Source of the DNA: Bacteroidota bacterium
GTDB lineage: Bacteria > Bacteroidota > Bacteroidia > Chitinophagales > LD1
Direction: 5' to 3'
DNA: 32,238 nucleotides
Assembly (NCBI GenBank): GCA_947478005.1
Contig: CANJVG010000027.1
Span: 1 to 32,238 of the forward strand
Positions 18,106 to 26,568 of this stretch are shown here, in pieces. The notes beneath the pieces were generated by a model. The model had not been told where the DNA came from, searched no databases, and saw nothing but the letters and a program-made list of their open reading frames with translations. Numbering within the stretch: position 1 is the stretch's first letter; the number at the start of each line of letters is the position of its first letter. Made by a program: the position numbers and the translations under genes.

Positions 18106-18681
18106 ATGGCAGCAGCACAATCAACCAAAGAGAAAGTAAAACAAACCGCTCAAAAACTTTTTCGCGAACGCGGCTATGCAGCGGTAGGTATGCGTGAGCT
18201 TGCTAAGGAAGTCGGAATACAGGCCCCCAGTTTATACAATCATTACAAGAGCAAAGACGACCTGTTGCGCGAAATATGCTTCGATATGGCGCAACACTTT
18301 TTTGCGGCTTTTGATAAAGCCATAGCTACGGAGGAAAAGTTTCCGCGAAAGCTTAAGGCAGCTATCAAAGCTCATATTGGTGTAATTGCTGCTAACCTCG
18401 AAGCCTCGGAAGTGTTTTTTAACGAGTGGATGTTTTTAGAACAACCACATTTAGGCAAATTCAAAAAACAGCGATTAGAATACGAGTTGAAATTTAGGGA
18501 GATCATTGATAAAGGAATTAAGAAGGGCGATTTCAAGAAAATGAATTCGAAACTTATTGCCTTTGCTATCTTCTCTGCGCTGAATGCGACTTATGATTTG
18601 TATCAATCGAGCGAAAAGTTATCGCAGGAAGAAATTGCTGAAGATATTTCAGACTTACTATTAAAAGGACTTAAATCTTAA
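18106..18681 (+). CDS. TetR/AcrR-family regulator of the phenylacetate operon (PaaR-like)
   Basis: The 191-residue protein has an N-terminal TetR helix-turn-helix (about 10-55): TKEKVKQTAQKLFRERGYA, then MRELAKEVGIQAPSLYNHYK, the classic recognition helix ending in YNHYKSKDDLL. The rest is an alpha-helical ligand domain without assignable pocket residues. It is followed by paaA after only 3 bases, so it is the first gene of the operon and very likely its repressor. By analogy with known TetR-type PaaR proteins, the effector would be phenylacetyl-CoA; that is inference. Two dyads in the upstream region are plausible operators. Confidence 0.88.
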   Translation: MAAAQSTKEKVKQTAQKLFRERGYAAVGMRELAKEVGIQAPSLYNHYKSKDDLLREICFDMAQHFFAAFDKAIATEEKFPRKLKAAIKAHIGVIAANLEASEVFFNEWMFLEQPHLGKFKKQRLEYELKFREIIDKGIKKGDFKKMNSKLIAFAIFSALNATYDLYQSSEKLSQEEIAEDISDLLLKGLKS

Positions 18682-18684
18682 ACT

Positions 18685-19671
18685 ATGTACGGAAGCACAA
18701 ACCTCTCGGAAGAGGATGCAAGGCGCATGAATACAACCGTGGAGGATCCCGAGAAACTCGAAGCATTTGAAGCGCGCATTGCGCGCGGAGAAAAAATTGA
18801 ACCACAGGATTGGATGCCGGTAGAGTATCGCAAGCAATTGATTCGGATGATAGAGCAACATGCACATTCTGAAATTGTTGGTGCTCTTCCGGAAGGAACC
18901 TGGATCACTCGTGCTCCAAATTTCAGAAGAAAATTAGCCTTAATTGCGAAAGTGCAGGATGAAGTTGGCCATGGTCAGCTACTATATTCAGCAGCGGAAA
19001 CTCTGGGCAAAACACGGGAAGAAATGATGAATGATTTGCTTAGTGGCAAATCGAAATACTCTAATGTATTTAATTATCCGGCAAATACCTGGGCCGATAT
19101 TGCGGTGATAGGATTTTTAGTTGATGGTGCAGCTATCGTAAATCAAACCATCAATTCAAAGGGCAGCTATGGACCATATTGTCGTGCTTTGGAGAGAATT
19201 TGTTATGAAGAAAGCTTCCACTTAAAACAAGGACACGACAACGTGGTTTATCTTGCGACTGGAACAAAACATCAACGCGCCATTTTGCAGGATGCAATTA
19301 ATCGGTGGTATCGTCCCCTTCTGCATTTTTTTGGTCCTCCTGATGTACAAAGCGCGCACAGCGAAAAGCTGATGAAATGGAAAGTGAAGCTGGCAAGTAA
19401 TGATGACATGCGAAACCAGTTTTTGGATATGTATGTGCCGAAAATTCTGGAACTGGATATTACTTTCCCTGATCCGAATCTGAAAAAGAACGAGGATGGT
19501 ATTTGGGAATTCAGTGACCCCGATTGGGATGAGTTCAAGCGGGTTATTAATGGGGATGGTCCTTGTAATGCCGAAAGAATTGCTGTTAGAAAATTTGCAG
19601 AGGAAGCAGGTCGTTGGGTGCGTCAGGCACTGATGAATCCTTCAGAAAAATATCAGGTTCCTTTAGCCTAA
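18685..19671 (+). CDS. paaA: 1,2-phenylacetyl-CoA epoxidase, catalytic subunit PaaA
   Basis: PaaA is the di-iron oxygenase subunit that epoxidises the ring of phenylacetyl-CoA, the entry step of the aerobic hybrid phenylacetate pathway. The 328-residue protein shows the expected carboxylate-bridged di-iron ligands: Glu63 (HAHSEIVG), Glu93/His96 (QDEVGHGQ) and Glu175 or Glu176/His179 ([11 protein letters not shown]). [20 protein letters not shown] is also present. Length and N-terminal start ([14 protein letters not shown]) fit the family. It lies 3 bases after the TetR gene and 11 bases before paaB, in the order paaA-B-C-D. Confidence 0.96.
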
Positions 19672-19682
19672 AACAAAACAAT

Positions 19683-20054
19683 ATGAGTTCGTTAGATCCA
19701 AGAGTAAATCGTCTCGATTTTAAAAAAGCAACGGATGGGGAAGTGCATACTAATTCCCATTTAATTACGTGGGAAGTGTTTCATCAGGATAAGCGCGGCA
19801 AACAGGCGGTGCACGTAGGTATTGTTCATGCATCTACCCCTGAAATGGCTTTGATTTTGGCTAAGGAACAATATGCCCGCAGAGGTAAGACCACTAATTT
19901 GTGGGTGGCAAAAACAAGTGATGTCTACACGTTCAGTACGCATGACGAAGATATTTTCGAAACAACTCCCGAAAAAACATTTCGAGACCCTGCATTTTAT
20001 AAGGTAAGAGATAGAATTGAGAAATTTCAGAACAGAAATAAAGTTACGATATGA
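19683..20054 (+). CDS. paaB: 1,2-phenylacetyl-CoA epoxidase, subunit PaaB
   Basis: PaaB is a small structural or bridging subunit of the phenylacetyl-CoA epoxidase complex. The 123-residue protein contains the family core: TWEVFHQDKRGKQAVHVGIV, HASTPEMALILAKEQYARRG, TNLWVAKTSDVY. It is longer than the roughly 95-residue E. coli protein at both ends. The frame runs further upstream into paaA, but MSSLDPRVNRLDFKK at 19683 is the sensible start, 11 bases after the paaA stop. Its stop overlaps the paaC start by 4 bases (ATGA), indicating translational coupling. Confidence 0.93.
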   Translation: MSSLDPRVNRLDFKKATDGEVHTNSHLITWEVFHQDKRGKQAVHVGIVHASTPEMALILAKEQYARRGKTTNLWVAKTSDVYTFSTHDEDIFETTPEKTFRDPAFYKVRDRIEKFQNRNKVTI

Positions 20055-20812
20055 ATAACTTAGCGATAAAAGATTTGCTATTGAAAATGGCTGACGATGC
20101 TCTTATTATCGGCCATAGAAACTCCGAATGGACCGGCATTGGACCAATTCTGGAAGAGGACCTTGCGTTTTCATCCATGGCACAGGATAAAATAGGACAT
20201 GCGCAAGCGCTCTACAGTATTCTACACGAAACTTTTGGTGAAGCGGATGCTGACACGCTTGCTTTTAAGCGTGAAGAGAAGGATTTTAAATGCTGCCAGT
20301 TCGTGGAGCAGCCTATTGGCGAATATGATTTCAGCATTGTTCGCCACTTTCTGTTTGACCATGCTGAACTGATTCGGTATGACATGCTAACTCTATCTTC
20401 CTTTCAGCAATTAGCTCAGCTGGCAAGGAAGGTGAAAGGAGAAATCAAATATCACGTGATGCATGCCGATATTTTTGTAAAGAAACTAAGCCTGGGAACA
20501 GAAGAAAGTAAAGCCCGCATGCAATCTTCCTTAAATTATGCCTGGCATATGGCGTTGGGAATTTTTGAGAAAGGAGAGTTTGAAGGAGAATTAGCTTCCG
20601 AAAATATTTTTGCAGGTGAAGAAGAATTGAAAAAACGCTGGCTCGAAAAAATAACTCCAATTCTTGAAGCGGCCGGTTTGAAAGTTCCTTTAACAGAGGA
20701 CTCTAAGATTGTATATGGGGGAAGAAAGGGCTTTCATTCAGAATATCTAAAACCTTTGCTGGATGAAATGTGTGAGGTGGTTAGAAGTGATGAGGCTACC
20801 GCTGAATGGTAA
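20051..20812 (+). CDS. paaC: 1,2-phenylacetyl-CoA epoxidase, structural subunit PaaC
   Basis: PaaC is the non-catalytic partner of PaaA with the same ferritin-like helical fold. The 253-residue protein starts MNNLAIKDLLLKMADDALII and shows the family patterns GHRNSEWTGIGPILEEDLAF, SSMAQDKIGHAQALYSILHE and LFDHAELIRYDML. FHSEYLKPLLDEM stands near the C-terminus. It overlaps paaB by 4 bases, and its stop lies close to or inside the start region of paaD. Confidence 0.95.
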   Translation: MNNLAIKDLLLKMADDALIIGHRNSEWTGIGPILEEDLAFSSMAQDKIGHAQALYSILHETFGEADADTLAFKREEKDFKCCQFVEQPIGEYDFSIVRHFLFDHAELIRYDMLTLSSFQQLAQLARKVKGEIKYHVMHADIFVKKLSLGTEESKARMQSSLNYAWHMALGIFEKGEFEGELASENIFAGEEELKKRWLEKITPILEAAGLKVPLTEDSKIVYGGRKGFHSEYLKPLLDEMCEVVRSDEATAEW

Positions 20813-20817
20813 TTAAT

Positions 20818-21321
20818 ATGGCCGAAGTTCTAAACATAAAAGCGGAAGAAGTTTGGGCAATACTTGAAAACGTAAAAGACCCGGAAATTCCCGTAATTTC
20901 TGTGGTAGAAATGGGTATGATTACCGGCATCCAAATTTCAGACAGTCCGAACATTGCGTGCATTACTATGACGCCAACCTTTGTCGGTTGCCCGGCTATA
21001 GACCTGATAAAAAAATCCATTCGCGAGGAGGTTTTGAAACTTGGATTTGATAAGGTGGAGGTGATGGTTGACTTCGAAACCAAATGGACTAGCGACCGGA
21101 TGAAACCTGAAGCAAAAGAAAAACTTGAAAAATTCGGGTTAGCTCCGCCAACCATTTTAAATGACGAGGAATTAACTGAGGTACAACTCAATAAAGTGCG
21201 TTGTCCTCATTGTCACAGTACGGATACTACATTGCGTTCTGCTTTTGGTTCTACTCTATGCCGCGCTATTCGTTTTTGTTTTTCTTGCCAGCAAGGATTT
21301 GAACAATTCAAGCCGATATAA
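20818..21321 (+). CDS. paaD: 1,2-phenylacetyl-CoA epoxidase maturation subunit PaaD
   Basis: PaaD belongs to the MIP18/DUF59-type iron-sulfur assembly proteins and is needed to build an active epoxidase. The 167-residue protein has the DUF59 core (VKDPEIPVISVVEMGMITGI, MTPTFVGCPAIDLI) and a C-terminal zinc-ribbon-like segment with CPHC and CFSC pairs around TLRSAFGSTLCRAIRF, as in family members. A second in-frame ATG at 20806 overlaps paaC by 7 bases; MAEVLNIKAEEVW at 20818 looks more natural, but the choice is open. It is the last gene of the operon in view; a weak terminator follows and paaE is absent. Confidence 0.93.
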   Translation: MAEVLNIKAEEVWAILENVKDPEIPVISVVEMGMITGIQISDSPNIACITMTPTFVGCPAIDLIKKSIREEVLKLGFDKVEVMVDFETKWTSDRMKPEAKEKLEKFGLAPPTILNDEELTEVQLNKVRCPHCHSTDTTLRSAFGSTLCRAIRFCFSCQQGFEQFKPI

Positions 21322-21444: not shown

Positions 21445-23343
21445 ATGAGGGCTTTCTGTTTTACTCTACTTCTTTTTCTTTTGAATATTGCTACAGGCAT
21501 AGCCAGTACAAATCCTGCCGCTGCATTATTAAATCAACAGGCTGAACTGAAACTAAATCAAAATCCCAAAGAAGTTATTGTATTGGCTGGAAAAGCAAAG
21601 CTTTTGGCGGACCAACATAAGGACAAAAAAAACTCAGCTTTAGCCACCATCCTTTTAGGAGTAGCCAATTTCAAAATTGACAATTACGAACGCGCCAGAA
21701 TTTTGCTTCCCGAAGCTCTAAAGTTGAGCGAAGCATGTGACGATTCTTCTACTCTGGCTTATGCTTATTATTGGAATGCTAACATTGAAGTAAACAAAGG
21801 AGAATATTCCAAAGCATTGGAGCACTACGAAATAGCTAAAACCATTGCCACTGAAATTAAGGATTCTAAAAATTTGGCCCGTTGTTTAGATGGTTTGGGC
21901 GGTATTTATGAAATGCTAAATCAAAATGATAAGGCAATGACTTATTATAAAGAGTCACTCAAAACGGCCTCTGAAGCAAACTTTAAAGAATGGATACCGA
22001 CTATTCTTTCCTCCCTGGGTAATCTCGCTTTGAAAAACGGAAAGACAGAGCAGGCCATTGCGAAATTTAAAGAAAGTGCTTCAAAATCTGAGGAAGCGGG
22101 CAACCTAAATAATAAAGCGAATTGCCTTCAGCAACTGGCCTCCATTTATTATGATAAAAATGACACTAAGCTGGCTATGGAATATGTTCAGGGGGCTATG
22201 ATGCTGTTTCAGCAAACGGGAGCATTGGTTTCTTATAGCCGAAGCCGGTTGCAGTTAAGTTTGATTTTGATGAGCAACCGCGAGTATGACAAAGCAATAA
22301 GTTTAGCCAAATTGAGTTGGGATTTTGGGAAGGAAAAGAAGGATATAGGCTTGCAAAAGGACGCCTGCGAAGTGCTTTACTTCGGCTATTATAACAAAGG
22401 TGACAAAAGCAATGCGCTTAACTACCACATTCAGTTTTATGATTTATCGCAAAAGAATCAGGTGGAAGAGCTTGCAAAAAAACTTACCCAAATGGAGTTG
22501 AAAGATAAGTTTGAAAACGAGCAAAAAATAAACCAGGCGCTTCGCGAGAAAGAACGAGCCGAAATGAACGCACAAATCGGGCAACAGAAGTTCGTGAAAA
22601 AAGCCTCCTTTATTGTACTTGGATTGTTTGCAATTATAGCCGGGCTCTCTGTTTTTGCATTTGTTCAAAAGCGAAACGATACTAGGTTAATTGCCTCAGA
22701 GAAGCAAAAATCAGATGATTTACTGCTGCATATTTTACCTAAGGAGGTAATGATGGAACTAAAAGAAAGTGCAAAATCGGAAAACAGACAATACGATTTA
22801 GCAACCGTTCTTTTTGCAGATCTGAAAGTTATTTCCGGAATGACGGAAGGCATGAACTCGCAGAAATTGTTGGAAGAGATTGATTTTAATTTCAAAAAAT
22901 TTGATGAAATTATTGCCCGCTATGGAATCGAAAAAATAATGACTATTGGCGATGCTTATCTATGTGTAAGCTCGTTGCCTAATGCCGATAAAGAAAATGC
23001 CGTGAATGTTGTGAATGCTGCCTTCGAAATGCAGCAGTTTATTGCGCAAACAAGCCAGCTTCAAAGGCAACAGGGGTTGCCTTATTTTGAAATCAAAATT
23101 GGAATTAATTCGGGACCGCTTATAGCCGGCATTGTGGGATTGAGAAAGGTTGACCATGATATTTGGGGTGATACTGTGAACATAGCGGCACATATGGAGC
23201 AGCATGGGGAGGTAAAGAAGATAAACATTTCGGGAGGCACATTTGAATTGGTGAAGGATACCTTTTTTTGCCAACCCCGGGCTACTGATGAGACCCAAAG
23301 TAAAGGCTACATGCCCATGTATTTTGTAGAAGGGCTGTTATAA
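21445..23343 (+). CDS. TPR-sensor class III nucleotide cyclase with degenerate active site
   Basis: The 632-residue protein has a signal peptide (MRAFCFTLLLFLLNIATGIA). TPR repeats at about 30-340 include YAYYWNANIEVNKGEYSKAL and LDGLGGIYEMLNQNDKAM. A transmembrane helix lies at 387-409, followed by a linker (SDDLLLHILPKEVMMELKE) and a class III cyclase domain (about 450-632). The TPR part is therefore periplasmic and the cyclase cytoplasmic. Both metal-binding aspartates are present (Asp459 in LFADL; Asp503 in MTIGDAY, 44 apart as in the family). Asp572 and Asn579 (DIWGDTVN) also remain. The adenine-reading Lys is Met499 and the transition-state Arg is His583. As a homodimer it should be impaired or altered. 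The paralogous cyclase begins 60 bases downstream. It could act as a C1-like half of a heterodimer, a pseudocyclase or a cyclase with changed substrate. Confidence 0.88.
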   Translation: MRAFCFTLLLFLLNIATGIASTNPAAALLNQQAELKLNQNPKEVIVLAGKAKLLADQHKDKKNSALATILLGVANFKIDNYERARILLPEALKLSEACDDSSTLAYAYYWNANIEVNKGEYSKALEHYEIAKTIATEIKDSKNLARCLDGLGGIYEMLNQNDKAMTYYKESLKTASEANFKEWIPTILSSLGNLALKNGKTEQAIAKFKESASKSEEAGNLNNKANCLQQLASIYYDKNDTKLAMEYVQGAMMLFQQTGALVSYSRSRLQLSLILMSNREYDKAISLAKLSWDFGKEKKDIGLQKDACEVLYFGYYNKGDKSNALNYHIQFYDLSQKNQVEELAKKLTQMELKDKFENEQKINQALREKERAEMNAQIGQQKFVKKASFIVLGLFAIIAGLSVFAFVQKRNDTRLIASEKQKSDDLLLHILPKEVMMELKESAKSENRQYDLATVLFADLKVISGMTEGMNSQKLLEEIDFNFKKFDEIIARYGIEKIMTIGDAYLCVSSLPNADKENAVNVVNAAFEMQQFIAQTSQLQRQQGLPYFEIKIGINSGPLIAGIVGLRKVDHDIWGDTVNIAAHMEQHGEVKKINISGGTFELVKDTFFCQPRATDETQSKGYMPMYFVEGLL

Positions 23344-23403
23344 AAACTTGTTGTATTTCGTTTATTTGCACGGCTAAAGGGTTTACCTATTTTTAATCTC
23401 CTT

Positions 23404-24693
23404 ATGAAACACAAAGCGTTTATCTTTCTTTTATTGGCTTTTGCAGGGCTGATGTTGCATGCACAAACGGCATCGGATACGAAAGCAAAGCAACTGGAGG
23501 AAATGCGGAAGTTGCAAAAGGATATACAACAGGAAAATCGCCTGATTCAGCAGCAAACCGAGTGGAATAACCAATCATCGCAGCAGGAAATAAAGAAGCT
23601 TAATCAGGAAAATCAACAGAAGAATTTTGAAATTGCATCGAGCAAGGATGAGGCACAACGAGCACGGGTCGAGGTTTTAAAAGCCAAACAAATTCTGGAA
23701 GCCAAGATGCGGGAGTTGAATCAGACCCAGATTTTGATTGATTCGGCCAAAATACAATTGGCTATCACGCGCGGACAACTAAGCGAAGCCGAGGTGGTAA
23801 ACAAGCGTATTAAGGAAGAACTCCAACACCAGGAGGACAGCGTAAAATATTTGAAACAAGCACAGGAATTTCAGGATTTGCGGTTACAAAATCAGCAAAT
23901 AGAGTTGGATGCTCAGAAACAAAAGAACCGGCTATACATTATAGCTGCTGCCCTAGCCCTTTCGCTGCTGGTGGTACTCTTTGCTTTGTTATTTACCCGC
24001 CAAAAAGCGCTAAGAGAGTTGGCAGAGAAAAACAAAATTATTCAGGAAGAGAAGAAGCGCAGCGATGATTTATTGCTGAATATCTTGCCGGAGGAGGTGA
24101 TGCACGAATTAAAAGCACATGGGAAAACCAAACCCCTTAATTATTCCAAAGCCACCGTTCTTTTTGCCGATATAAAAGACTTTACAAAAATCAGCGAACA
24201 GCTTTCTCCCGATGATTTGATTGAAGGATTGGATGCTTACTTCGAGCGATTTGACAAAGTCATTGAGAAGTACGACATTGAGAAGATTAAAACTATTGGT
24301 GATGCTTATGTATGTGCCGGTGGAGTGCCGACTAAGAGTGAAGGCAATCCACACATAGTGGTACAGGCAGCGCTTGATTTTATGTATGAAATTGACAAGC
24401 TGCGGAGGGAAAGACTGGCAGTGGGTAAAATTCCGTTTGAATTCAGAATTGGTATCCATACCGGGCAATTGGTGGCGGGGGTTATCGGTATTCGTAAATT
24501 TGCCTACGATATTTGGGGCGATACGGTAAACATGGCCGCCCGTATGCAACAAACGAGCGAAGCCGGAAAAATAAATATTTCGGGTGCTACCTATGAACTG
24601 GTTAGAGACAAGTTTGCCTGCGTGTATCGCGGAAAAGTAGAGGCTAAGAATAAGGGAGAGATAGACATGTATTATGTGGAGAAGGCCCTGTAA
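23404..24693 (+). CDS. Membrane class III adenylate/guanylate cyclase with periplasmic coiled coil
   Basis: The 429-residue protein starts with a signal peptide (MKHKAFIFLLLAFAGLMLHA). A Gln/Glu/Lys-rich coiled coil follows (about 25-170; KQLEEMRKLQKDIQQENRLI at its start), then a transmembrane helix at about 177-198 and the SDDLLLNILPEEVMHELK linker. The class III cyclase domain covers about 245-429. The catalytic set is complete: metal-binding Asp256 (LFADI) and Asp300 (KTIGDAY), purine-reading Lys296 and Asp369, and transition-state Asn376 and Arg380 (DIWGDTVNMAARM). The Lys/Asp pair predicts ATP as substrate and cAMP as product; guanylate activity cannot be excluded. It is a close paralogue of the upstream cyclase from the linker onward, and the HD-domain gene starts 30 bases after its stop. 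Confidence 0.92.
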   Translation: MKHKAFIFLLLAFAGLMLHAQTASDTKAKQLEEMRKLQKDIQQENRLIQQQTEWNNQSSQQEIKKLNQENQQKNFEIASSKDEAQRARVEVLKAKQILEAKMRELNQTQILIDSAKIQLAITRGQLSEAEVVNKRIKEELQHQEDSVKYLKQAQEFQDLRLQNQQIELDAQKQKNRLYIIAAALALSLLVVLFALLFTRQKALRELAEKNKIIQEEKKRSDDLLLNILPEEVMHELKAHGKTKPLNYSKATVLFADIKDFTKISEQLSPDDLIEGLDAYFERFDKVIEKYDIEKIKTIGDAYVCAGGVPTKSEGNPHIVVQAALDFMYEIDKLRRERLAVGKIPFEFRIGIHTGQLVAGVIGIRKFAYDIWGDTVNMAARMQQTSEAGKINISGATYELVRDKFACVYRGKVEAKNKGEIDMYYVEKAL

Positions 24694-24723: not shown

Positions 24724-25311
24724 ATGAAGAACTACAGCGCGGTAGAAAAATTTGTTACGGAGCGATTGCAGCGGGAGCTGCCTAAGGATCTGTATTATCA
24801 TGGGTTTCACCACACTATGGATGTACTTCGGTCAGCTATCATGATTGCCACCGAAGAAAAAATAACAGAGGAGGAAATGACCTTGCTGAAAGTGGCGGTG
24901 CTCTATCACGATATCGGATTTACCAAGGTTTACAAAAACCATGAGGAAATAGGCTGCAACCTGGCTAGGGCAGAATTGCCGGGATTTGGTTTTAATGCTC
25001 AGGAAATTGAAAGCATTTGCGGAATGATTTTGGCTACCAAAATTCCTCAGCAACCTCAAAACAAGTTAGAATACATCATTGCCGATGCCGATTTGGAATA
25101 TTTGGGCACCGAAAGGTTTCAAGAAATAGGCCGAACACTTTTTGAAGAAATAAGAATTTATCTGCTGGTAGAAAGCGAGCGCCAGTGGAACATCATTCAA
25201 ATGAATTTTTTGAAGAACCACCGTTACTTTACCGATTTCTGCAAAGAAAACCGCGAACCTCAAAAGCAAAAACAGCTAAAGGAAATTGAAAAGATTGTAG
25301 CTTCTTATTAA
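24724..25311 (+). CDS. HD-domain metal-dependent phosphohydrolase
   Basis: The 195-residue cytoplasmic protein has the HD superfamily metal motifs: His26/His29/His30 (YYHGFHHTMDVL), the HD doublet His62-Asp63 (LYHDIGF), His73 (YKNHEEIG) and a distal Asp at 121 or 123 (IIADADLEYLG). This pattern fits predicted metal-dependent phosphohydrolases; no known substrate-specific subfamily is obvious. It begins 30 bases after the complete cyclase with no terminator between, so it probably shares a transcript. A role in cyclic-nucleotide or nucleotide turnover is suggested by position only. A strong bidirectional terminator follows. Confidence 0.85.
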   Translation: MKNYSAVEKFVTERLQRELPKDLYYHGFHHTMDVLRSAIMIATEEKITEEEMTLLKVAVLYHDIGFTKVYKNHEEIGCNLARAELPGFGFNAQEIESICGMILATKIPQQPQNKLEYIIADADLEYLGTERFQEIGRTLFEEIRIYLLVESERQWNIIQMNFLKNHRYFTDFCKENREPQKQKQLKEIEKIVASY

Positions 25312-25362: not shown

Positions 25363-25395
25363 AAAAGGCGCATCCAGTGAATGGGTGCGCCTTTT
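25363..25395. terminator. Bidirectional terminator between the HD gene and the 25421 gene
   Basis: AAAAGGCGCATCCA (25363-25376) pairs with TGGGTGCGCCTTTT (25382-25395) with one T/G wobble. A-run and T-run flanks allow use by both convergent genes. Confidence 0.88.
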
Positions 25396-25420: not shown

Positions 25421-26416
25421 TTAGTTTACTTCATAAATCTCCAACTCCACGGCCACCGGTGAAGAGGTGGCAATATTCAAAAATAGTTTGGCCGGCTCAA
25501 AACCAAGCTGTGCGGCTGTAACAATTTTGTTATCGCCCGGGTTAAACACCATACCCACTGGCGCATCGCCCGGGTCGGTAGAGGTGCTGGCAGCAAAATA
25601 GACAATCGCGAGTTCGCCCGGATTGGTGTTCAGATTTTTTATGCGGAACTTAGTAGTAGCTGTAACCGCCACATCCACCAGCGGCACATTTCTCACGCCA
25701 CCGCCCGGTGGCATAATTATATTTTCAATCAGTTCTTCCTGTTTGTGGTCATAAAGCAATCCAAAGTCAATATATTGACCAATGATAGCCGGAGTGGCAT
25801 AATAAAGACCCAGCAAACCGCCATACACCAAACCCCAGTAAGCACCCATTGTGGCAACGCGCTGCGCCTCGCGCTGAATGCGCAAAGTGCCGTCTCCGCC
25901 CTCCTTGCCCTGCTGCACCTGGCGAGTGGTATGGGCCAGGGTGTGAAAAGCCGCCACATCGGCCTGCACCGGCACCAGCGAAGGATGCGCCACTGTATAT
26001 TCCAACAGTTTTACACTCAGCGCCTTTATTGCCAGCAGGCGGGTTTCATAAGTGCCGTCATAAAATATTTTTCTTTTTTGAGGAAAGATTTCAATCTCTT
26101 CCGGTGTGTCTTCGGGAAAAATCGCGTGAATTCCTCCCTCCCAAACTTTCAATTTCTTAGGCACATCACTCATCACTTGTTCAAAGCTGGCGGTTTTGCC
26201 CTTATAGGTTCCTTCGGCAATTTCTACCGCCACATTCAGCGCAATGTAGGCATCAAAATGCGGTTCGAAATTATTGAAAAGGAGTTGCTCCGCAAGGATG
26301 GCCGATGGCCTTAGCTTGTCCATAGTATCAGTAATAAGACTGATGGCTTTTTTGTGGCTTTTTGCCGTTTGGCTGTCAAAACCGTTTTGTAACATTCGAT
26401 AGGTTATCTCTGCCAT
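25421..26416 (-). CDS. Unrecognised cytoplasmic protein with helical N-terminus and beta-rich C-terminus
   Basis: The frame extends to 26551 through AT-rich, low-quality sequence; MAEITYRMLQNGFDSQ at 26416 is the likely start, giving 331 residues. There is no signal peptide or obvious anchor. Residues about 1-200 are helix-rich with hydrophobic heptads (AYIALNVAVEIAEG; TRLLAIKALSVKLLEYTVAH). A Gly/Tyr-rich segment follows (MGAYWGLVYGGLLGLYYATP, about 205-225). The C-terminal 80 residues, after a GGGVRN linker, are beta-rich (KFRIKNLNTNPGELAIVYFA; LFLNIATSSPVAVELEIYEV) and resemble a small beta sandwich. I do not recognise the family. It is convergent with the HD gene and divergent from the giant surface protein across a 1.1-kb non-coding region. 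Confidence 0.75.
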   Translation of the reverse strand: MAEITYRMLQNGFDSQTAKSHKKAISLITDTMDKLRPSAILAEQLLFNNFEPHFDAYIALNVAVEIAEGTYKGKTASFEQVMSDVPKKLKVWEGGIHAIFPEDTPEEIEIFPQKRKIFYDGTYETRLLAIKALSVKLLEYTVAHPSLVPVQADVAAFHTLAHTTRQVQQGKEGGDGTLRIQREAQRVATMGAYWGLVYGGLLGLYYATPAIIGQYIDFGLLYDHKQEELIENIIMPPGGGVRNVPLVDVAVTATTKFRIKNLNTNPGELAIVYFAASTSTDPGDAPVGMVFNPGDNKIVTAAQLGFEPAKLFLNIATSSPVAVELEIYEVN

Positions 26417-26568
26417 AATGTTTCGTTTTTTGTTTTTGTTTGAAAAAATTTGATGCGGCAAAACTATGGCGTATCGGTTTTTCGGCAAAAAATAGAGGTT
26501 TAATAAATCTTCAAATTTTGGATAAGAAAAGTTTGATGAATTGTTAAACAAGGATTAAGGAATCAAGG

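Follow-up and report, generated by a model that had tools for sequence, protein, structure and literature searches.

The question raised by this locus is whether two adjacent class III nucleotidyl cyclases, one of which has lost part of its active site, work together as one enzyme. The genes lie in a 32,238-nucleotide stretch of a Bacteroidota genome (contig CANJVG010000027.1, the window), and their products are designated here P1 and P2. The initial annotation described the pair as having complementary active-site losses and as resembling a bacterial version of the C1/C2 heterodimer of mammalian adenylyl cyclase. On the comparisons reported here, a P1-P2 heterodimer appears to be the most likely single reading, as a recent state of one lineage and not as a conserved bacterial C1/C2.

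The coordinates of the two open reading frames were found to be right, and P1 and P2 were confirmed as paralogous from the linker on, with 47% identity over 222 residues from the linker through the C-terminus (BLASTP); outside this shared segment, only chance-level BLASTP matches between the two were obtained. Both are class III nucleotidyl cyclases, as their PF00211 scores (131.9 bits for P1 and 177.8 bits for P2) far exceeded the Pfam cut-off of 21.9. The set needed for a self-sufficient homodimer comprises two metal-binding aspartates and Lys, Asp, Asn and Arg residues. Direct reading of the codons bore out the residues assigned to both proteins: P1 keeps Asp459 and Asp503 and has Met499 and His583 instead of Lys and Arg, and P2 has Asp256, Lys296, Asp300, Asp369, Asn376 and Arg380. 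The set is incomplete in P1 and complete in P2. Because P2 retains all six residues, the active-site loss is one-sided, and the description of it as complementary had to be dropped: P1 alone lost residues, and P2, unlike mammalian C2, keeps both metal aspartates. Since P2 has lost nothing, it should in principle be competent to act as an ordinary homodimer with two sites, and the Lys296/Asp369 pair predicts that it is of the adenylate and not the guanylate type. A sequencing error behind the Met/His changes is unlikely because approximately 40% of the P1 cyclase domain differs from that of its relative in genome G004, in an open frame.

The residues were compared across a sample of 18 genomes of the genus, the window's own included, and with cyclases of the order outside it. 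The cyclase search returned 77 matches, comprising 16 P1s, 13 P2s and 48 others. The residue comparison took in 42 of these 48, one of which (L115) was unreadable owing to a stop in the match and a wrong frame; G033:C167 (complete when read separately), G035:C58, G023, G020, G019 and the partial G014:C6 were left out. All six residues were present in 12 of the 16 P1s. The four broken ones were the window P1 (Lys to Met and Arg to His), that of G007 (second metal Asp to Glu), that of G009 (Lys to Glu and substrate Asp to Glu) and that of G013 (Asn to Thr). The Arg was kept in all 15 other P1s and the Lys in 14, the exception being the Glu of G009. P2 was complete in 13/13 genomes, with both metal aspartates always kept, and so were 41/41 other readable class III cyclases, 31 from elsewhere in the genus and 10 from the order outside it. 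Thus, 4/16 P1s were broken versus 0/54 other readable cyclases (13 P2s, 31 and 10), for which the Fisher p value of 0.002 is only a guide, since the rows share ancestry. The P1 of G008, sister to G007 and G009, had all six residues in spite of a very diverged domain; therefore, the four losses look like separate events. This pattern suggests that the loss in the window P1 was recent and one among several. P1 is a real hot spot of decay, in which one cyclase orthogroup erodes recurrently beside an intact, co-transcribed-looking paralogue; its members lose catalytic residues with unusual frequency and yet keep their full length.

Since the Met/His pair was found in no other P1 and the orthologues keep Lys and Arg, the locus does not represent a conserved C1/C2 design. 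The initial annotation had itself regarded orthologues with Lys and Arg as evidence against its proposal, and such orthologues are the rule (Lys in 14/15, Arg in 15/15). Two further patterns were rejected as evidence for pairing. The decay of P1 could not be tied to the presence of P2 (3/12 broken with P2, 1/4 without it). A parallel change of Tyr571 to His beside the substrate Asp was seen in three P2-bearing lineages (the window, the ancestor of G007-G009, and G011) and in no P1-only genome; it is not special, because 26 site/residue combinations had three or more parallel changes.

The linkage of the two cyclases fared better. An operon-like triad of P1, P2 and an HD-domain protein, in the same order, was found in 12/18 genomes, and P2 and HD adjoined P1 at 12 of the 16 P1 loci, so that the partner was not absent in most genomes. 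Of the expected conservation in neighbouring genomes, the tandem arrangement was therefore found, and the same Met/His changes were not (0/15 other P1s). The P1 of G016 was truncated by the contig start, and this genome is still counted among the 12. P2 and the HD protein co-occurred in an identical set of 13 genomes (HD in 13/13 with P2 and in 0/5 without it); in G012 they lay on different contigs and P1 was not found. P1 was alone in four genomes (G002, G006, G010 and G013), in searches of which neither P2 nor an HD relative was found, and none of the triad was found in G003, which is 69% complete. By the species tree, from which G016 was left out, parsimony assigns the four P1-only genomes to two separate losses of P2 and HD. 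P1 and P2 were separated by up to 60 bases (60 in the window), with a possible overlap at the other extreme and 455 bases in G008, and the P2-HD gaps were 23-34 bases (30 in the window).

Between the window and G004, identity was 94% for the P2 cyclase, 61% for the P1 TPR region and 59% for the P1 cyclase; between G004 and G017, a more distant pair, the P1 cyclase was 79% identical though the TPR region was only 50% identical. On a fixed topology, the end branch of the window was 0.650 for the P1 cyclase, 0.349 for the P1 TPR region and 0.050 for the P2 cyclase, i.e., the P1 cyclase changed 13 times more than the P2 cyclase while its length remained full. Among 11 of the 12 triad genomes (G016 was left out), the P1 cyclase was slower than its own TPR region in G004, G014, G015, G017, G005 and G011 (ratios 0.19-0.93); it outpaced that region in the window, G008, G007 and G009 (ratios 1.29-2.10) and in G001 (1.62). 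In the cyclase tree, which retained the rows on long branches but not one 135-aa fragment, P1 and P2 formed well-supported separate clades; within its clade, the position of the window P1 was unsupported (88/16) and differed from the species tree. Residues V455, FxD459 (F457, D459), GIxxG, AGxxG, WGDT (W574-T577) and others were kept in all nine diverged P1s, and the membrane-linker stretch of the window P1 was 70% identical to that of G004, versus 61 and 59 for the flanking parts. The dN/dS ratio (nonsynonymous to synonymous change) was discarded for the window P1, as its synonymous sites were near or at saturation (proportion of synonymous differences, pS, 0.79 versus G004 and 0.69 versus G017). 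When neutral change of 20% or 30% of residues was simulated, the frame remained free of stops in 11% or 5% of runs, respectively; the open P1 frame argues, not strongly, against a long neutral phase.

The reading that we tentatively prefer, with confidence a little short of even, is that P1 is a membrane sensor whose cyclase domain is losing its own chemistry and that it nevertheless pairs with P2, either in a regulatory role or as half of a site. P1, P2 and the HD protein would then form one signalling operon, its genes presumably transcribed together, in which P2 would be a membrane-bound class III cyclase and the source of the putative product. P1 would be a second membrane sensor, with a periplasmic TPR region, one span, the same signalling linker and a cyclase domain of the same family. 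In the window lineage, P1 is predicted to be unable to form a normal site with itself, because each site of a P1 homodimer would be without the adenine-reading Lys and the transition-state Arg. P1 would most likely persist because it can still dimerise with P2. Such a dimer would have one complete site, built from the metal aspartates of P1 and the Lys, Asp, Asn and Arg of P2, and one dead or regulatory site, and the TPR signal would tune P2 through the dimer, whether up or down. By the residue comparison, each of the 12 P1-P2 pairs would have one complete composite site or more. Also in favour of this reading are the conserved order and mostly short gaps of the three genes, the completeness of P2 beside broken P1s, and the rate jump in a P1 cyclase domain that has nevertheless kept its full length and core motifs, next to a well-kept membrane-linker stretch; the C1/C2 and NeoR/RGC1 enzymes described below are parallels.

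Several findings weigh against this pairing. One composite site per pair is expected by chance, the losses being so few, and P2 by its residues is predicted to need no partner. The Met/His pair is private to the window, broken P1s were not commoner beside P2 (3/12) than alone (1/4), and P1 occurs without P2 in four genomes. In one of these, G013, the broken P1 (Asn to Thr) was the genome's only match at both E 1e-20 and E 1e-30. The polarity is not fixed either: the P1 of G007, with its metal Asp to Glu change and its Lys, Asp, Asn and Arg kept, is the reverse of C1. In G001, the P1 cyclase was likewise fast (ratio 1.62) although none of the six residues is lost; therefore, speed and residue loss do not fully coincide. 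The stop-codon argument carries little weight, particularly at 20% change. When both cyclase domains were modelled as a read-through chain, they did not dock (predicted template modelling score 0.35, from a shallow alignment of 11 sequences), and the best Foldseek alignment of this model was to adenylyl cyclase AC9 over both domains, at a root-mean-square deviation of 25.4 A; with so few sequences, this model tells little.

Plain lineage-specific decay is a serious rival and quite possible, if somewhat less so than pairing. According to it, P1 and P2 are independent homodimers, and P1, its output being dispensable, drifts toward a pseudogene with no role in the P2 site. The privacy of the Met/His changes and the fast window P1 branch fit this explanation, as does the fact that lineages lose different residues, with one of the losses (G013) in a P1 without P2. 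Either of P1 and P2-HD may also be absent, with P1 alone in four genomes and P2 without P1 in G012. A P2-like cyclase adjoined the HD protein in L086 and L087 of the sister genus g4, with no P1 beside it in L087; the contig of L086 starts too near to judge, and the g4 search for P1 covered the two g4 genomes of the cyclase search. However, the frame of the window P1 is intact over 632 codons, and its TPR region, span and linker are still conserved. The diverged P1s of G007-G009 have remained full-length through saturated synonymous divergence (proportion of nonsynonymous differences, pN, 0.31-0.41; pS ~0.8). Moreover, all five genomes in which the P1 cyclase is faster than the TPR region have the whole triad.

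A broader form of the pairing reading, in which the locus is a two-gene cyclase caught between paired homodimers and one-site heterodimers, is possible, though well short of even odds. P2 would serve as a backup that lets P1 shed either half-site, the species would stand at different stages and even at opposite polarities, and the HD protein would remove the signal.

It is improbable that P1 acts alone, whether through a homodimer of altered chemistry or as a non-catalytic nucleotide-binding receptor. Active class III cyclases with deviating substrate residues are known, P1 keeps both metal aspartates as well as Asp572, Asn579 and Lys620 (which we take to be the phosphate-side residue), and the altered P1 of G013 has been retained as the only match in its genome at the thresholds given above. 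Nevertheless, Arg and Lys were lost together in one protein, and neither change occurred in any readable cyclase outside P1. The idea that P1 pairs with another class III cyclase of the genome or signals elsewhere has very little to recommend it: two more cyclases with full sets are present (contigs C33 and C42), but both are unlinked to P1, that of C42 is without an obvious signal peptide or span by eye, and among the compared cyclases P2 is the one sharing the P1 locus across the genus.

Eukaryotes provide well-described examples of heterodimeric class III cyclases. In mammalian adenylyl cyclase, as given in an excerpt of PMC4174876, C1 and C2 belong to one chain, C1 supplying the metals and C2, without metal residues, the substrate residues. 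The window proteins share the class III fold with AC5, AC8 and AC9, both domains matched C1 as well as C2, and P1 keeps the metal side. In the alignment with P1, C1 of AC5 likewise has His at the Arg position; unlike P1, it has Lys at the Met499 position and Thr for Asn. The window differs from the mammalian enzymes in having separate genes, a complete P2 and Met/His changes confined to one lineage of the genus. Of the features of a C1/C2-type split, the metal-keeping P1 and its partner linkage stand, and metal loss in P2 and a family-wide division of labour do not.

Another known arrangement is that of the chytrid rhodopsin guanylyl cyclase NeoR/RGC1, for which an excerpt of PMC12264004 describes one active site, another that is apparently regulatory, and a subunit inactive alone. 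As in P1/P2, separate clustered genes encode membrane sensors with homologous cyclase domains, according to the same excerpt; in contrast, that heterodimer was demonstrated experimentally and is eukaryotic and of the guanylate type, whereas the window pair is known from sequence and P2 seems self-sufficient. P2 resembles bacterial single-chain cyclases of the Rv1625c/Cya type, which its chain matched, in its six residues (roles as in the excerpt of PMC4174876); these enzymes are described as homodimers, and P1 is without two of the six. Soluble guanylate cyclase alpha/beta is a heterodimer of paralogous class III subunits whose chains matched both window domains, but it is of the guanylate type. 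Its specificity residues differ from those of the window. Among the open-access papers listed, and in the passages of a few of them, no bacterial pair occurring in nature with one degenerate subunit was seen. If P1 and P2 pair, the genus would offer a graded natural series of complete, partly eroded and heavily eroded P1s beside a constant P2, suited to testing the evolution of a one-site, two-sensor cyclase. If they do not, it would be a clean case of repeated loss of chemistry within a single cyclase orthogroup.

An anti-phage reading of the locus as Pycsar, which would call for a clear PycC match and a known Pycsar effector next to it, was rejected: the PycC matches did not exceed 56.4 bits (for P2), a score within reach of class III domains in general, and the HD protein beside P2 matched no PADLOC model.

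The HD protein may, as a guess, be a second-messenger hydrolase that removes the cyclase product. Compared with known phosphodiesterases, it gave a single weak match, to a predicted HD hydrolase (E 0.024), and PDEase_I was below the cut-off. HD relatives at E 1e-15 were found in 172/298 sampled genomes, and 20 further HD loci were fetched for their high score or long frame. A cyclase-like match was nearby at 11/20 of these: the HD domain was fused behind a cyclase in L082, L084 and L097 and adjoining one in L081, L086, L087, L094, L098 and L099, and the match was weak or partial in L080 and L083. Because no nearby cyclase match was present in the examined stretch at 9/20 loci, G012 included, the HD-cyclase link is frequent and not general. 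The HD family, which in some members of the order is fused to a class III cyclase or lies beside one, is perhaps an uncharacterised cyclic-nucleotide hydrolase. At locus L098 (G147:C17), from a different family of the order, a cyclase-cyclase-HD arrangement recurs, and the branches of its cyclases are long. Since five cyclic-nucleotide-binding domain matches over the cut-off were found in the window's genome, a receptor is plausible.

The features of the locus are listed in Table 1.

Table 1. Coordinates, protein layout and catalytic residues of the cyclase locus in the window
Feature	Position	Strand	Remarks
TetR regulator and paaA/B/C/D-type genes	18106..21321	+	upstream of P1
P1 (cyclase 1)	21445..23343	+	632 aa
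P1 layout			signal-peptide-like start; TPR sensor ~24-340; long helix and one predicted membrane span ~387-406
P1 C-terminal part			linker, then degenerate class III cyclase domain 448-629
P1 Asp459, first metal aspartate	22819..22821	+	kept in 16/16 P1s
P1 Met499 (ATG)	22939..22941	+	adenine-reading Lys in 14/15 other P1s, 13/13 P2s
P1 Asp503, second metal aspartate	22951..22953	+	kept in 15/16 P1s; Glu in G007
P1 Asp572	23158-23160	+	codon read directly
P1 Asn579	23179-23181	+	codon read directly
P1 His583 (CAT)	23191..23193	+	transition-state Arg in 15/15 other P1s, 13/13 P2s
P2 (cyclase 2)	23404..24693	+	429 aa
P2 layout			signal-peptide-like start; coiled-coil-like region; one predicted membrane span ~178-198; linker; complete class III cyclase domain 246-426
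HD-domain protein	24724..25311	+	195 aa; 30 bases downstream of P2; third triad member
Terminator-like stem, 14 pairs	25363..25395	+	after HD gene; possible transcription-unit end; consensus match only

The N-terminal sensors differ: that of P1 matched TPR families in Pfam, and that of P2, for which no Pfam family exceeded the cut-off, is coiled-coil-like by eye. Judged from sequence, each protein has a signal-peptide-like start and a single span ahead of the common linker, which should place the sensors in the periplasm and the cyclases in the cytoplasm. In the AlphaFold model, the P1 TPR region formed eight helical hairpins (predicted local distance difference test, pLDDT, mostly >90), residues 376-450 were a low-confidence stretch, and the cyclase domain had class III topology (pLDDT mostly 70-91; lower at ~461-470, 561-580 and 611-620). 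Positions 21604-22197, part of the TPR region, resembled the sensor histidine kinase FimS model NF053520 (59.8 bits, well short of the cut-off of 600), as if different outputs might share one sensor type.

Sites of the terminator consensus numbered 2 in the region versus 3.9 expected from shuffles. An open reading frame of 376 aa, for which Pfam gave no match at 1e-4, lies convergent to the triad on the minus strand at 25421-26551. TetR and four paa-type genes preceded P1 in 12/14 relatives' loci, the exceptions being G010, with the last paa-type gene only, and G008, with none within the 2.8 kb examined; this common neighbourhood supports the orthology of the P1s. The same upstream genes could mean that phenylacetate breakdown and the cyclases are connected in their regulation. 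Other adjacent class III cyclase pairs in the genus had full catalytic sets (G014:C77, G015:C1 and G009:C13). The named relatives are metagenome-assembled genomes of uncultured Bacteroidota or Chitinophagales, and the isolate names of some hint at a lake or bog.

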